From assembly GCF_040784935.1 (NCBI RefSeq), contig NZ_CP160680.1, positions 5,809,802-5,873,801 of the forward strand: a stretch of 64,000 nucleotides of DNA, in the 5' to 3' direction. The DNA is from Lewinella sp. LCG006 (lineage in GTDB: Bacteria; Bacteroidota; Bacteroidia; Chitinophagales; Saprospiraceae). Under the pieces are notes generated by a model. That model was not told the DNA's origin and did not search any database. It worked only from the letters and a program-made list of their open reading frames with translations. Below, in pieces: positions 38,483-43,771 of the stretch (positions are counted from its first letter, which is position 1; every line of letters starts with the position of its first letter). A program made the translations under genes and the position numbers.

Positions 38483-39166
38483 ATGAAAATACTCCTAATC
38501 GCCGCCACCGCCTTTGAGATAGCCCCATTGCTGGATTTTCTTCGAAGTGAAGGATGGGAAAGAGAGCCGCTGCATTTTCAAAAAGAAGCTTTGAGTATAG
38601 AGGTTTTGATTACTGGGGTAGGGTTGCCATTAGCGGCATTTGCTTTGGGGCATCGCCTGACTACGCGTCAGTATAATCTGTTGTTGCAAGCAGGAGTAGC
38701 GGGAGCCATTGATCGTCAATTGCAACTTGGTGAGGTCGTAGAGGTGGTGTCTGATTGTTTTGCGGATCTGGGGGTAGAGGAAGCAGATGGTACGTTCACC
38801 GAAGTGACGACAATGGGGCTGATAGATGGTGATAGTTTTCCATTTAAATACGGACGCCTGTGGAATAGCCCTATTGACGGAGAAGCTTTTCTCCCGCGCG
38901 TACACGGTATCAGTGTGAATAAGGTACATGGCACCGAAGAAAGTATAGCAGCCATGAAAGCAAGTTTCCCTTTTGCTCAAGTGGAGAGTATGGAAGGAGC
39001 GTCTTTCTTTTATGCCAGCCTGCAATACGCAAGACCTGCTTTGCAGATTAGATCCATCAGCAACTACGTAGAAAAAAGGCAGCGCGATAACTGGAAGCTA
39101 AAGGAAGCGATTACCAACCTCAACCAAGTCCTCCAAGAGATGTTGTTGTCTTTTAGCGAACAATAA
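38483..39166 (+). CDS. mqnB: Futalosine hydrolase
   Basis: A nucleoside-phosphorylase-fold protein of 227 residues from the ATG at 38483 (an in-frame TTG at 38462 is less likely). Motifs ITGVGLPLAAFALGH, QAGVAGAIDRQLQLGEVV, and VESMEGASFFYA match MqnB. It removes hypoxanthine from futalosine in the alternative menaquinone pathway. This fits the MqnP-like prenyltransferase at 53013 and the quinol-oxidising complex III in the same window. Confidence 0.85.
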   Translation: MKILLIAATAFEIAPLLDFLRSEGWEREPLHFQKEALSIEVLITGVGLPLAAFALGHRLTTRQYNLLLQAGVAGAIDRQLQLGEVVEVVSDCFADLGVEEADGTFTEVTTMGLIDGDSFPFKYGRLWNSPIDGEAFLPRVHGISVNKVHGTEESIAAMKASFPFAQVESMEGASFFYASLQYARPALQIRSISNYVEKRQRDNWKLKEAITNLNQVLQEMLLSFSEQ

Positions 39167-39210
39167 TAAAGCGAACATTCGTTTGTTTTTTTTCGATTTT
39201 AGGAGAATTG

Positions 39211-39242
39211 TTTGTAGTGTTCAAAATATTTCTCTAGGTTTG
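39211..39242 (+). promoter_or_regulatory. Promoter of the Phe/Tyr operon
   Basis: TTTG (39211-39214), a 20-base spacer and TAGGTTTG (39235-39242), a full match to TTTG-N20-TAnnTTTG. Transcription would start near 39249, about 18 bases before the first leader reading frame. Confidence 0.8.
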
Positions 39243-39266
39243 TTTCATAAGCAAGACAAAACAGTC

Positions 39267-39323
39267 ATGTTGAGTAGCAATTTCTTTTATTTCTGTGGTT
39301 TTTATTTTTATGCCCAAGCATAA
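39267..39323 (+). CDS. Phe/Tyr leader peptide 1
   Basis: An 18-codon frame, MLSSNFFYFCGFYFYAQA, with five Phe and three Tyr codons, eight of them between residues 6 and 15. It lies between the promoter and an intrinsic terminator, upstream of pheA-aminotransferase-tyrA-DAHP synthase. This is the classic arrangement of a ribosome-sensing attenuation leader. Such a short frame with this composition, placed in front of Phe/Tyr genes, is hard to explain by chance. The segment ggaacca directly after the stop codon can pair with the left arm of the terminator, so a ribosome at the stop would cover it and favour termination. Translation has not been shown. Confidence 0.8.
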   Translation: MLSSNFFYFCGFYFYAQA

Positions 39324-39366
39324 GGAACCACGCTATTGCTGCTAAACAAGACTTAAAGTAATAATG

Positions 39367-39395
39367 ATGGTTCCGCCAAAAGCGGGACCATTTTT
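39367..39395 (+). terminator. Attenuator terminator 1
   Basis: Ten-base stem atggttccgc / gcgggaccat (one G-U pair), loop of five bases, then ttttta. The left arm overlaps tggttcc (39368-39374), which is complementary to ggaacca at 39324-39330, the alternative (antiterminator) pairing. Confidence 0.8.
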
Positions 39396-39406
39396 AGTTT
39401 ATAGCC

Positions 39407-39478
39407 ATGCCAAATTATACCACCACCAATTTTAGCTATTCATTTTATAGCTTTTATTTTTTTTACGGTACTCCGTAG
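39407..39478 (+). CDS. Phe/Tyr leader peptide 2
   Basis: A second leader frame of 23 codons ending in TAG, starting 12 bases after terminator 1. It has five Phe and five Tyr, with the dense core YSFYSFYFFY at residues 11-20. The following sequence repeats the design of leader 1: ggaacttt begins two bases after the stop codon and can pair, with one bulged A, with aaagtcc in the left arm of terminator 2. It would sense the same amino acids a second time before pheA. Translation has not been shown. Confidence 0.8.
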   Translation: MPNYTTTNFSYSFYSFYFFYGTP

Positions 39479-39511
39479 ATGGAACTTTGGTATAGTATCA
39501 GGTATGCTGTT

Positions 39512-39545
39512 AAAAAGTCCCGTCGGTAACTGCGGGACTTTTTTT
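39512..39545 (+). terminator. Attenuator terminator 2
   Basis: Eleven-base stem aaaaagtcccg / cgggacttttt, 10-base loop, ending in a run of seven T. It ends 20 bases before the pheA start codon, so pheA expression requires reading through it. aaagtcc at 39514-39520 is complementary to ggaacttt at 39481-39488 except for one bulge. Confidence 0.85.
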
Positions 39546-39565
39546 ATTTAATAACAATTTTGAAC

Positions 39566-40462
39566 ATGTCAACAACTTCAGACGATCAATCAATGCTAGC
39601 CCCCGAGGCGGTGATCGACAACAAATTACGCGTAGGAATCCAAGGCTACAGCGGCGCTTTCCACGAAATTGCTTCGCGCCAGTTTTTTCCAGATCGCGAG
39701 CTGGAAATCGTCGCTGCTCACACTTTTGAAGATTTGATCGAAGCGCTATTGGAAGGAGCAACGATGGATGTGGGGTTGATGGCCATTGAGAATACCCTGG
39801 CAGGCAGCTTAATGAGTAACTACAGGCTTTTATTAAATAGTGAAGTCTCCATCGTAGGAGAAGTCTTCTTGCGGATTGAGCAAAATTTACTTACGCTCCC
39901 CGGCGTAAAAATTGAAGATTTGGAGGAGGTGCATTCTCACCCAGTGGCTATTGCTCAGTGTCGTAAGTTTTTCAAACAATACCCTCATATTCAACTGGTA
40001 GAGACGGTAGATACGGCACTCAGTGCTCGGGAAGTAAAAGAGAATAATTGGCGCAATGTTGGTGCAATTGCCTCGAGTTTAGCTGCTGAGCTGTACAGTC
40101 TTGATATCCTGGCTGCTGGTATAGAAACGAACAAACAAAACCATACCCGCTTTCTAGTTTTAAGAGCAAACGTCGAGACAATCAAAGACGCTACCGCTAA
40201 CAAGGTTTCTCTAAGTTTTACCGTAGATCATACCGCTGGCAGTTTGTACAAGGTGCTAGCTGTTTTGTCGGCCTACAATGTAAATCTTACCAAGATCCAA
40301 TCAGCTCCGATCATCGGGAAACCCTGGGAATACCTCTTTTTTGTCGACTTTGTAGTAGAAGGAGATATGAGTTGGGAACAAGCCATTGAGGCCATTATAC
40401 CCATTACCCGAGAGCTGCATGTGCTGGGAGCTTATCCTCAAGGAGATAAAGATGAGCAGTAG
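39566..40462 (+). CDS. pheA: Prephenate dehydratase
   Basis: A 298-residue monofunctional dehydratase (prephenate to phenylpyruvate), from the ATG at 39566. The N-terminal VGIQGYSGAFHE motif and the middle SHPVAIAQCRKFF and GAIASSLAAELY fit the periplasmic-binding-like catalytic domain. A C-terminal ACT domain (about residues 210-285, with DHTAGSLYKVLAVLSAYNVN and KPWEYLFFVDF) suggests allosteric inhibition by Phe. First gene of the operon behind the tandem attenuator. Confidence 0.95.
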   Translation: MSTTSDDQSMLAPEAVIDNKLRVGIQGYSGAFHEIASRQFFPDRELEIVAAHTFEDLIEALLEGATMDVGLMAIENTLAGSLMSNYRLLLNSEVSIVGEVFLRIEQNLLTLPGVKIEDLEEVHSHPVAIAQCRKFFKQYPHIQLVETVDTALSAREVKENNWRNVGAIASSLAAELYSLDILAAGIETNKQNHTRFLVLRANVETIKDATANKVSLSFTVDHTAGSLYKVLAVLSAYNVNLTKIQSAPIIGKPWEYLFFVDFVVEGDMSWEQAIEAIIPITRELHVLGAYPQGDKDEQ

Positions 40463-40625: not shown

Positions 40626-41801
40626 ATGATCGCTTCAACCATCATAGCCCCTGCCCAACGATTAGGGCAAGTAGAAGAATACTACTTTTCGCGCAAGCTG
40701 CGGGAGATTGCTGAAATGCGAGCTGCCGGACACCAGGTGATCAACTTGGGGATAGGCAGCCCAGATTTACCGCCACATCCTACCGTTATCAGCCGCCTAC
40801 AGGAGGCCGGAGGGAATACTGATAATCACGGCTATCAATCGTATCAGGGGCTCCCGGAGTTACGGGCAGCATTCGCTCAGTGGTACGGGCAGCATTTTTC
40901 GGTAGAACTAAATGCGGCGACCGAGGTGCTGCCGCTGATTGGCTCCAAAGAGGGAATCATGCACATCAGCATGGCTTTCCTTAATCCTGGCGATGAAGTA
41001 TTGGTACCCAACCCTGGTTACCCAACTTACCGATCGGCGACCGAGTTGGCGGGTGGTGTGGTGCGTTCCTATGAATTGTCGGCGGAAGGAGGGTGGTTCC
41101 CCGATTTGGAGGCGCTTGCTGCAGGGGGGCTGGAGCGCGTAAAGATCATGTGGGTCAACTATCCTCACATGCCAACGGGGACTTCTGCCCAAATGCACCA
41201 TTTTGAAGCCTTGATCGCTTTTGCGAAAGCACACGATATACTGCTGGTCAATGACAATCCTTATGCCTTTATCCTCAATGAATCACCAGCCAGTTTGTTG
41301 GCTATTCCTGGTGCTAAAGAAGTAGCCCTGGAGCTCAACTCGCTGAGTAAGGCACACAACATGGCTGGCTGGCGCGTAGGTGTATTGGTAGGAGCGGAAG
41401 AATACCTACAGATTGTCTTGCGCTTTAAGAGCAATATGGATTCTGGTATGTTTAAACCTGTACAACTGGCGGCTATTGCTGCACTGGAATTGCCAGCGTC
41501 ATGGTATGCCGCTCAGAATGAAATTTACGGACAACGTAAGGAGAAGGCCGTCGCCCTGTTGGAGATGCTGGGGTGTGAAATTGCAGGAGAGCAAGTGGGC
41601 ATGTTTGTATGGGCACGGGTACCAGAACATTATGCCGATGGGTACGAGCTCACAGATGCTATTTTAGCAGAAAAGCACATCTTCCTGACGCCCGGCGGAA
41701 TTTTCGGGAGTGCAGGGGAGCAATACGTTCGCATCTCTTTGTGTAGCCCGGTAGCGGTGTTGGAAGAAGCAATGGAACGGCTAACACATTTTAAATCATA
41801 A
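40626..41801 (+). CDS. Pyridoxal-phosphate aminotransferase (class I/II) of the Phe/Tyr operon
   Basis: A 391-residue fold-type I aminotransferase. The PLP lysine sits in NSLSKAHNMAGWRVG, and the substrate/phosphate regions LGIGSPDLPPHP, GSKEGIMH and NPGYPTY are normal. The usual NYPNNPTG appears as NYPHMPTG. Its place between pheA and tyrA, in an operon behind Phe/Tyr leaders, suggests that it makes the final transamination to Phe and/or Tyr, though sequence alone cannot exclude aspartate or other substrates. Confidence 0.88.
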   Translation: MIASTIIAPAQRLGQVEEYYFSRKLREIAEMRAAGHQVINLGIGSPDLPPHPTVISRLQEAGGNTDNHGYQSYQGLPELRAAFAQWYGQHFSVELNAATEVLPLIGSKEGIMHISMAFLNPGDEVLVPNPGYPTYRSATELAGGVVRSYELSAEGGWFPDLEALAAGGLERVKIMWVNYPHMPTGTSAQMHHFEALIAFAKAHDILLVNDNPYAFILNESPASLLAIPGAKEVALELNSLSKAHNMAGWRVGVLVGAEEYLQIVLRFKSNMDSGMFKPVQLAAIAALELPASWYAAQNEIYGQRKEKAVALLEMLGCEIAGEQVGMFVWARVPEHYADGYELTDAILAEKHIFLTPGGIFGSAGEQYVRISLCSPVAVLEEAMERLTHFKS

Positions 41802-41805
41802 CAGC

Positions 41806-42645
41806 GTGGTCATTACAATAATAGGAATTGGTCTGATTGGTGGATCGCTTGCCATTACCTTGAAAGAGAATGGTTTTGCCAGCCGAATTATTGGGGTCGA
41901 CCAAAGTCAGGAGAACCTGGATAAAGCAATCCGTCGTCGATTAATCGATGAGGACCTGGAGCTTGCCGCAGCAGTAGCACAGGCGGATATAGTGGTGTTA
42001 GCTACGCCAGTAGACGCCATGCTCACTTTGTTGCCACAGGTGCTGGACATGGTGGATAGGCAAGTAGTGATGGATATGGGCTCGACAAAAATCAACATTC
42101 TCGAAGCGGTAGCCAATCACCCCAAGCGTGGACGACTAGTAGCTACCCACCCCATGGCTGGAACGGAATACAGTGGGCCAGAAGCAGCCATCCCCTGCCT
42201 TTTTGACCATAAATGTACCGTTCTGTGCGATGTGGAGCAGAGTGATGAGGATGCCCACGAAACAGTGAAACGACTTTACGCAAGTATCCCTATGCGAATC
42301 GTCTACCTCAACGGCAAGGAGCACGATTTGCATACGGCTTATGTTTCGCACATTTCGCACATCAGCTCTTTTGCATTGGCATTGACCGTTTTGGAAAAGG
42401 AAAGGGATGAGAACCAGATTTTCCAACTAGCCAGTGGCGGATTTAGTAGCACGGTACGGCTGGCCAAGAGCTCGCCCGACATGTGGATACCCATTTTTCG
42501 GCAAAACCGGGACAACGTCCTGGATGTATTGGATGAACATATTAATCAGCTGGCACGCTTCCGTAGTCTGCTCATCAAAAAGGATTACGAAAAGTTCTAT
42601 GAGCGGATTGAAGAAGCCAACCAAATTCGTAAAATAATTTCTTAA
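41806..42645 (+). CDS. tyrA: Prephenate dehydrogenase
   Basis: A 279-residue NAD(P)-dependent enzyme that converts prephenate to 4-hydroxyphenylpyruvate for Tyr. The N-terminal nucleotide motif is GIGLIGGSLA, and HPMAGTEYSGPEAA, HISHISS and FRQNRDNVL are typical of TyrA. I accept a GTG start: it is four bases after the aminotransferase stop and begins the first beta strand. It has no ACT or mutase domain, so feedback must come from elsewhere or from attenuation. Confidence 0.92.
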   Translation: MVITIIGIGLIGGSLAITLKENGFASRIIGVDQSQENLDKAIRRRLIDEDLELAAAVAQADIVVLATPVDAMLTLLPQVLDMVDRQVVMDMGSTKINILEAVANHPKRGRLVATHPMAGTEYSGPEAAIPCLFDHKCTVLCDVEQSDEDAHETVKRLYASIPMRIVYLNGKEHDLHTAYVSHISHISSFALALTVLEKERDENQIFQLASGGFSSTVRLAKSSPDMWIPIFRQNRDNVLDVLDEHINQLARFRSLLIKKDYEKFYERIEEANQIRKIIS

Positions 42646-42685: not shown

Positions 42686-43771
42686 ATGGACATGAATATG
42701 CAATTTGAACCTATCGCGCCAAAATCTAAACGCCCTTTTATTATCGCCGGCCCCTGTAGTGCCGAGACGGAAGGACAGGTAATGGCTACGGCCAAAGCAC
42801 TGGCCGAACAGAACATTGACCTCTTTCGGGCAGGTATTTGGAAACCCCGTACCCGACCAGGCTCTTTCGAAGGCGTAGGTAAGGAAGGACTCTCCTGGTT
42901 GAAACACGTAAAGGAAGAAACAGGCCTAAAAGTTACCACGGAAGTGGCAAAAGCGGAACACGTATATGAAGCCCTGAAATACGGCATTGATGTACTTTGG
43001 TTGGGGGCACGTACCACTGTAAACCCTTTCTCCGTGCAGGAAATCGCTGATGCGGTGAACGGTATGGATATCCCCGTATTGATCAAAAATCCTATCAATC
43101 CTGATCTACCGCTATGGATGGGAGCCATTGAACGGATCTACAAGGCCGGCATTACCAAGATTGGCGTTATCCACCGCGGGTTCTCTTTCCATGGGCAAAC
43201 CAAATACCGCAACGTACCCAGATGGCAGTTGGCCATTGAATTGAAGCGTAATTTTCCAGATTTGATGATGATCTGTGATAACAGCCATATATGTGGCCGT
43301 CGTGATTTATTACAGGAAGTGGCGCAAGAGGCCATGGATCTTAATTACGACGGGATCATGACGGAAGTTCACCCTCGTCCTGATGAAGCCTGGAGCGACG
43401 CGGCACAGCAGATCACACCGGATACCTTCCGCGACTTGGTCAGTAGCCTGGTCTTGCGCCAGGAAACCAGTGACAATATGGAGTACCTTGCCCATATTGA
43501 TGACCTGCGCCAGCAGATTGACGAAATTGATGACGATTTACTCAAACTGTTGGGCAGTCGGATGAAGGTTTCTGAGAAAATTGGAGAATACAAAAAACGC
43601 AACAACATTGCCATCTTGCAAACTTCGCGCTGGAACGAAATTCTGGACCAGGTAATGGCGAAGGCCAGTGCGGAAGGGTTGAGTGAAAACTTTATAAATA
43701 CTTTTCTGCGGGCAGTCCACCAGGAGTCGATTGATCGTCAGGAGCAGGTGATGAATCGCCAGGAAGCTTAA
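42686..43771 (+). CDS. Bifunctional DAHP synthase / chorismate mutase
   Basis: Residues 1-260 are a type I-beta DAHP synthase (KRPFIIAGPCSAETE, GIWKPRTRPGSFEG, DNSHICGRRDLL, TEVHPRPDEAWSD), which catalyses the first step of the shikimate pathway. Residues about 265-350 are an AroQ-type chorismate mutase (DDLRQQIDEIDDDLLKLLGSRMKVSEKIGEYK). Such fusions often confer feedback control by prephenate. Last gene of the Phe/Tyr operon; with pheA, tyrA and the aminotransferase it covers both ends of the branch. Confidence 0.93.
   Translation: MDMNMQFEPIAPKSKRPFIIAGPCSAETEGQVMATAKALAEQNIDLFRAGIWKPRTRPGSFEGVGKEGLSWLKHVKEETGLKVTTEVAKAEHVYEALKYGIDVLWLGARTTVNPFSVQEIADAVNGMDIPVLIKNPINPDLPLWMGAIERIYKAGITKIGVIHRGFSFHGQTKYRNVPRWQLAIELKRNFPDLMMICDNSHICGRRDLLQEVAQEAMDLNYDGIMTEVHPRPDEAWSDAAQQITPDTFRDLVSSLVLRQETSDNMEYLAHIDDLRQQIDEIDDDLLKLLGSRMKVSEKIGEYKKRNNIAILQTSRWNEILDQVMAKASAEGLSENFINTFLRAVHQESIDRQEQVMNRQEA

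Follow-up and report, generated by a model that had tools for sequence, protein, structure and literature searches.

Tandem Phe/Tyr-rich leader frames and terminators upstream of the pheA operon of Lewinella sp. LCG006, a probable pair of serial attenuators

The locus lies within a 64-kb stretch of DNA from Lewinella sp. LCG006 (all of which is referred to here as the window) and carries four genes whose domain matches identify prephenate dehydratase (pheA), an aminotransferase, prephenate dehydrogenase (tyrA) and DAHP synthase–chorismate mutase, in agreement with an earlier interpretation made without database searches (the sequence-only reading) that the operon makes Phe and Tyr. Upstream of pheA are two short Phe/Tyr-rich frames with their stop codons, each followed by its own predicted intrinsic terminator, and both pairs are found where that reading had placed them (Table 1). 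The consensus promoter it had claimed is also present, and is of a particular type. Bacteroidota promoters have the consensus TTTG, about 20 nt and then TAnnTTTG, and it is this pattern rather than a sigma-70 promoter that the sequence upstream of the first frame fits, with a sigma-70 scan of the + strand from 38700 to 40000 returning none. Both leaders of the window have a more stable fold than all of the 200 shuffles made of each (z of -5.2 and -6.4).

Table 1. Features of the tandem leader and pheA operon, with positions counted from the first nucleotide of the window.
Feature	Position	Strand	Basis
Promoter, Bacteroidota-type: TTTG (39211–39214) and TAGGTTTG (39235–39242), spacer 20	39211–39242	+	Sequence
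Leader frame 1, MLSSNFFYFCGFYFYAQA, 18 codons, 5 Phe and 3 Tyr	39267–39323	+	Read directly; kept in relatives
Hairpin 1: UAU (last Tyr codon) and GC, loop CCAA, GCAUA running into the stop codon	39309–39322	+	Fold and covariation
Segment 2 of unit 1, GGAACCA; partner UGGUUCC of terminator 1	39324–39330	+	Pairing, -11.6 kcal/mol
Intrinsic terminator 1, stem-loop then T-run	39366–39392	+	Terminator prediction, unit finder
Leader frame 2, MPNYTTTNFSYSFYSFYFFYGTP, 23 codons, 5 Phe and 5 Tyr	39407–39478	+	Read directly
Hairpin 2: UACGG UACU CCGUA, last Tyr codon to stop codon	39464–39477	+	Fold and covariation
Segment 2 of unit 2, GGAACUUU; partner AAAGUCCC of terminator 2, one A-C mismatch	39481–39488	+	Pairing, -7.4 kcal/mol
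Intrinsic terminator 2	39512–39543	+	Terminator prediction, unit finder
pheA, prephenate dehydratase with ACT domain	39566–40462	+	PF00800, PF01842
Class I/II aminotransferase	40626–41801	+	PF00155
tyrA, prephenate dehydrogenase	41806–42645	+	PF02153, PF20463
DAHP synthase fused to chorismate mutase	42686–43771	+	PF00793, PF01817

We looked for similar units with a finder that calls a terminator preceded by a short frame rich in Phe and Tyr codons, scanning up to 900 nt upstream of pheA in 162 distinct regions drawn from PheA searches (with PheA found in 259 of the 398 genomes of the same family, f1, and in 340 of the 395 genomes drawn from the phylum). We take f1 to be the Saprospiraceae because four of its loci lie on contigs of known name, from Lewinella cohaerens, Phaeodactylibacter and two Saprospiraceae MAGs. 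Applied to both strands of the whole window, the finder returned the two pheA units and nothing else. Conservation of Phe/Tyr-rich frames in relatives had been named beforehand as a test of the tandem leader, and it was passed with matches in 129/162 regions compared to 1/162 reverse complements and 2/486 dinucleotide shuffles. The finder also responds to other residues, though with fewer matches, when the pair sought is changed to Leu/Ile (60 of the 162 regions), Leu/Ser (54), Leu/Val (47), Lys/Asn (27), Ser/Thr (26), His/Gln (1) or Asp/Glu (0), and it yields one false frame at the his locus. It should be noted that wrong automatic choices of frame were kept in the counts (unit 1 of L015, for which MSSSNSFYYFGCCFYATA is likelier, and unit 1 of L033, which looks wrong), and that kinship among the sequences inflates all p-values. 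A covariance model, R1, made only two confident matches in the Lewinella genome, the two window units (E of 5e-8 and 2e-5), which were themselves part of its training set. This set was made up of 50 of the 84 f1 units that have the standard offset, with a single representative for each genus and unit number. The next match (E of 0.54) resembles a plain terminator by eye, and the unit finder finds nothing there.

Two units were found in 50 of the 162 regions, one in 79 and none in 33. Most of the doubled leaders are in f1, where strict criteria gave 47 double, 36 single and 8 empty regions out of 91, and relaxed criteria applied by eye raised the doubled leaders to 52 (with second units gained in L055, L074, L083, L088 and L096). 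Weaker criteria also gave one weak or odd unit by eye in each of L080, L085, L090 and L104 and no unit in L095, while the L044 region is shortened by a contig end. As 36/91 regions have one unit and 8/91 none, two units are not essential. Single units were found in 18/18 regions of f5 (14 loci plus four named flavobacterial loci, a family we take to be the Flavobacteriaceae), 10/10 of f2 (from the same order as f1), 4/4 of f3 and 1/4 of f11. Among 26 regions from outside the class one unit was found in 5 and none in 21, and this absence says little because the 900 nt scanned is partly coding where the prephenate dehydratase sits in a long fused frame. Phylum members such as G782, G667 and G628 have the enzyme in open frames of about 670–720 aa, which suggests fusions with another enzyme. 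The residues of some leaders also vary, with the single pheA leaders of L080 and L085, each with a terminator, oddly deviating from Phe/Tyr in being rich in Phe and Ile (MKNNFFINFIIIFIYELS and MKNSFFVNFIFICIYEPS), and a Trp codon being present in many Phe/Tyr leaders (in 13/18 of f5, including L009, L010, L011, L012, L142 and L143, and also in L006, L007, L035 and L038), perhaps as the DAHP synthase of the operon serves all three aromatic amino acids.

Doubled leaders were also found outside f1 in the MAGs L006 and L007 and in L126, with L146 added by eye (L126 and L146 are the f9 cases). A quickly made PheA tree with 123 rows places these lineages apart from f1 and from each other, though many forks are weak, and the double, single or none label changes at least 21 times on this tree compared to a shuffled mean of 45.9. 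It looks as if doubling arose repeatedly and in f1 is old with losses; with so many weak forks, it may instead be ancestral and have been lost many times. Unit 1 tails have a likeness of 0.52 across genera compared to 0.44 between unit 1 and unit 2 tails within one genome, and the two units are therefore not recent copies of each other. The likeness of unit 2 tails across genera, 0.41, is below this within-genome value. We conjecture that the unit nearer the gene is the older one and that unit 1 was inserted ahead of it. The Bacteroidota promoter pattern occurs in the 130 nt preceding the first leader in 62/81 f1 regions and in 2/81 reverse complements, and in 0/46 of the stretches between two units, which are shorter. 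Terminator 1 and leader 2 lie a median of 31 nt apart (n = 41); in Lewinella cohaerens (L002) about 220 nt separates them, in an insertion-like stretch from about 375 to 154 nt upstream of the pheA match.

The ends of the leader frames have a conserved layout in which the last Phe/Tyr codon is followed by exactly three more codons and then the stop codon in 84/130 f1 units, with Y-G-x-P-stop in 45 of these 84. This Tyr-stop stretch folds as UAYGG-NNNN-CCRUA and pairs the Tyr codon with the stop codon. All five pairs are found in 62 and four in a further 17 of the 83 distinct f1 sequences, and the wobble base of the last Phe/Tyr codon makes a Watson-Crick pair with that of the final sense codon in 78/83 (UA in 46 and CG in 32) compared to at most 57 in 5000 shuffles. 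When the partner was slid by -3 to +4 columns the paired fraction fell from 0.93 to at most 0.55, and RNAalifold reported compensated double changes at 13/18 pairs among 50 units.

An antiterminator, which was absent from the sequence-only reading, is present and was tested. Past the last Phe/Tyr codon and ahead of the terminator is a segment (segment 2) that mimics the terminator 3' arm, and across 179 units its pairing with its own terminator 5' arm has a mean percentile of 0.97 among composition-shuffled segments and 0.86 among arms swapped from other loci (0.81 within the same family, n = 158; Wilcoxon p of about 1e-29 with kinship ignored). In doubled leaders segment 2 pairs better with its own arm than with that of its partner unit in 76/100 cases, equally in 4 and worse in 20. 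Segment 2 of window unit 1 is at the 1.00 percentile against swapped arms and 0.90 against shuffled segments, and that of window unit 2, with its one mismatch, is at 0.65 and 0.47, so that for this single unit the antiterminator is no better than chance. An antiterminator that excludes the terminator and would be freed by stalling is found computationally over the 179 units and in window unit 1, and is weak in window unit 2.

Segment 2 also has a fixed position, and begins 11–15 nt past the last Phe/Tyr codon in 104/130 f1 units compared to 11% of shuffles, although it should be noted that this range was picked after a median of 12 nt (IQR 12–13, n = 128) had been found. The medians for f1, f5 and f2 are 12, 10 and 9 nt. 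A ribosome covers some 10 nt downstream of the codon in its A site, and because of this footprint a stall at the last Phe/Tyr codon would leave segment 2 free while a ribosome one or two codons further on would cover it. Distances were measured from the last Phe/Tyr codon, a choice made after a search solely past the stop codon had failed for f5 and f2, where segment 2 sits within the frame. It is found past the stop codon in 43/47 f1 first units, and within the frame in 12/47 f1 second units and 29/32 single units of f5, f2 and f3.

The frames might instead encode working hydrophobic micropeptides with the terminators incidental, as short aromatic-rich peptides do recur across families. This we regard as highly improbable, as residues outside the Phe/Tyr run vary whereas the RNA pairing is kept through wobble changes and segment 2 keeps a fixed spacing. 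It is unlikely, too, that this genome has one working unit and a relic, the weaker unit 2. The weak antiterminator of unit 2 in the window and the single unit of many relatives would fit such decay, but in unit 2 the Tyr-stop hairpin still has all five base pairs, the terminator is strong and the frame has 10 Phe/Tyr codons, and all four regions examined from the genus Lewinella (L001, L002, L014 and L015) carry both units.

We modelled the effect of a ribosome by folding the nascent RNA just before the terminator 3' arm is made, with the ribosome represented as a mask. In the window, a fraction of 0.70 (unit 1) and 0.74 (unit 2) of the terminator 5' arm is predicted to pair into the antiterminator with a ribosome at the last Tyr codon, and 0.00 with the ribosome at the stop codon or without a ribosome. 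The means over 166 ATG-started units are 0.68, 0.02 and 0.47, respectively, with the last-codon value exceeding the stop value in 163/166 units. As it exceeds the no-ribosome value in only 76/166, the hairpin does not lock segment 2 everywhere, and in the model a terminating no-ribosome state is true of the window and not of the units generally. A stall at earlier codons gives a nearly equal result (0.66 at codon 3), from which it follows that specificity would reside in the codons themselves, and Phe and Tyr make up 80–84% of the last eight codons in f1.

The strong alternative folds found in the leaders upstream of the terminators might also be expected if a riboswitch, T-box or RNA-binding protein acted on the terminators without translation. 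We give almost no weight to this explanation, as the Phe/Tyr codons are conserved in frame and no Rfam family reaches its gathering score between 38400 and 40600, with the T-box family not among the 10 Rfam matches up to an E of 10 in the same interval. A division of labour between a Phe-sensing and a Tyr-sensing unit is another explanation, similar to the differing signals of the Salmonella mgtCBR attenuators. There are two units and two amino acids, and tandem attenuators with differing signals are known (in the mgtCBR portions of PMC3641672), but the f1 means of 4.79 Phe and 3.15 Tyr codons in unit 1 and 5.09 and 3.60 in unit 2 (47 units each) are similarly mixed, and the run ends in a Tyr codon in 39/47 first and 36/47 second units, making it very unlikely. 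The two serial checkpoints of the sequence-only reading are supported by the conserved frames and the antiterminators, and judged by codon content Phe and Tyr are not split between the units, as both residues occur in both.

We consider it highly probable that the tandem leader is a series of two transcription attenuators of the classic ribosome-mediated kind. Each would respond to charged tRNA-Phe and charged tRNA-Tyr alike, and leakage would multiply. From the observed anatomy, conservation and covariation we infer stalling, termination and multiplicative logic as follows. A single transcript would start a few nt past TAGGTTTG, and a ribosome would translate leader 1. Scarce Phe-tRNA or Tyr-tRNA would stall the ribosome within the Phe/Tyr run with its front edge just short of segment 2, which begins 12 nt past the last Tyr codon, and the free segment 2 would pair with the terminator 1 5' arm and let RNA polymerase proceed. 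When both charged tRNAs are plentiful, the ribosome would reach the stop codon and cover segment 2, and terminator 1 would form. Any RNA polymerase past terminator 1 would face the same choice at unit 2, and since both checkpoints must be passed, leakage would multiply and the control range widen.

Other operons of the same genome have similar leaders. The his operon has the leader frame MNLTFVHHHHSGFAFAANGDLMRA and one strong terminator (L171, upstream of hisG, near 2544953–2545417 on the minus strand), and the trp operon has MNLCKQNNWWWHSKHSDQSE and one strong terminator (L172, upstream of trpE, near 6767822–6768259 on the minus strand). Both are probable attenuators, and the 12-nt ruler is not seen in either (offsets of 2 and 26). 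We note that the his leader begins about 13 nt past a tRNA-Phe gene (anticodon gaa) and the his operon may share its transcript. No leader unit was seen by eye upstream of ilvD. Attenuation seems general in Lewinella sp. LCG006, and among the operons examined (his, trp, ilvD and pheA) doubling is found for Phe/Tyr only.

A wider interpretation, to which we give slightly less than even weight, is that there is a Bacteroidia-wide, uncatalogued family of aromatic-amino-acid attenuators. Its members would work through a constant ruler of about 12 nt and a hairpin that the last aromatic codon forms with the stop codon. Doubling would have arisen several times (in the Saprospiraceae group, f9 and a Bacteroidales-like MAG lineage) and been kept for the steeper multiplicative control of two same-signal checkpoints, and such a family would imply tight coupling of RNA polymerase and ribosome in Bacteroidota, which are mostly without Shine-Dalgarno initiation.

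The sequence-only reading had described leader-peptide attenuation as best studied in Proteobacteria and knew of no doubled Phe/Tyr attenuator in Bacteroidota. On the first point, earlier hints from Bacteroidota should be added, with 'strong clues' for leader-peptide attenuation upstream of amino-acid operons in the Flavobacterium psychrophilum transcriptome (PMC9723704, in passages which do not name pheA, Phe/Tyr or doubling) and leader-like short frames mentioned for B. thetaiotaomicron (in part of PMC7366714); a passage of PMC4833913 cites Lopatovskaya et al. 2010 on attenuation in bacteria. On the second point, our literature search, mostly outside subscription journals, turned up neither this leader family nor any doubled attenuator whose two units share the same amino acids. 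The mechanism itself is known. The attenuation anatomy is conserved in Bacteroidota and is not a Proteobacteria speciality. The leader would be a natural case of two same-signal checkpoints in series with single-unit relatives as ready controls, and as attenuation needs a ribosome that keeps pace with RNA polymerase, it makes transcription–translation coupling in Bacteroidota directly testable.

Enterobacterial pheA, trp and his attenuators have a leader rich in the codons of the product and an antiterminator that excludes an intrinsic terminator. The Lewinella leader is like these in its product-codon-rich frames and in setting an antiterminator against an intrinsic terminator (see the portion of PMC3641672 on trp). 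It is unlike them in having codons for Tyr in addition to Phe, a second unit in series, a Bacteroidota promoter and the Tyr-stop hairpin, and its two units, at 22.6 and 22.4 bits (E of about 1), fall far short of the gathering score of 55 for Rfam Phe_leader RF01859. The anatomy of two leader frames in series before one operon is shared with Salmonella mgtCBR (mgtM and mgtP), described in the relevant portion of PMC3641672 as a singular example of tandem attenuators with different signals. There the signals (ATP and proline) are additive and the stem-loops are unlike intrinsic terminators, whereas the pheA leader has the same two amino acids in both units, judged by codon content, and an intrinsic terminator in each. 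Two terminators in series are also found in tandem riboswitches (metE of B. clausii, as cited in a passage of PMC3641672), but these respond to two signals by direct metabolite sensing and without a leader peptide, unlike the pheA units.
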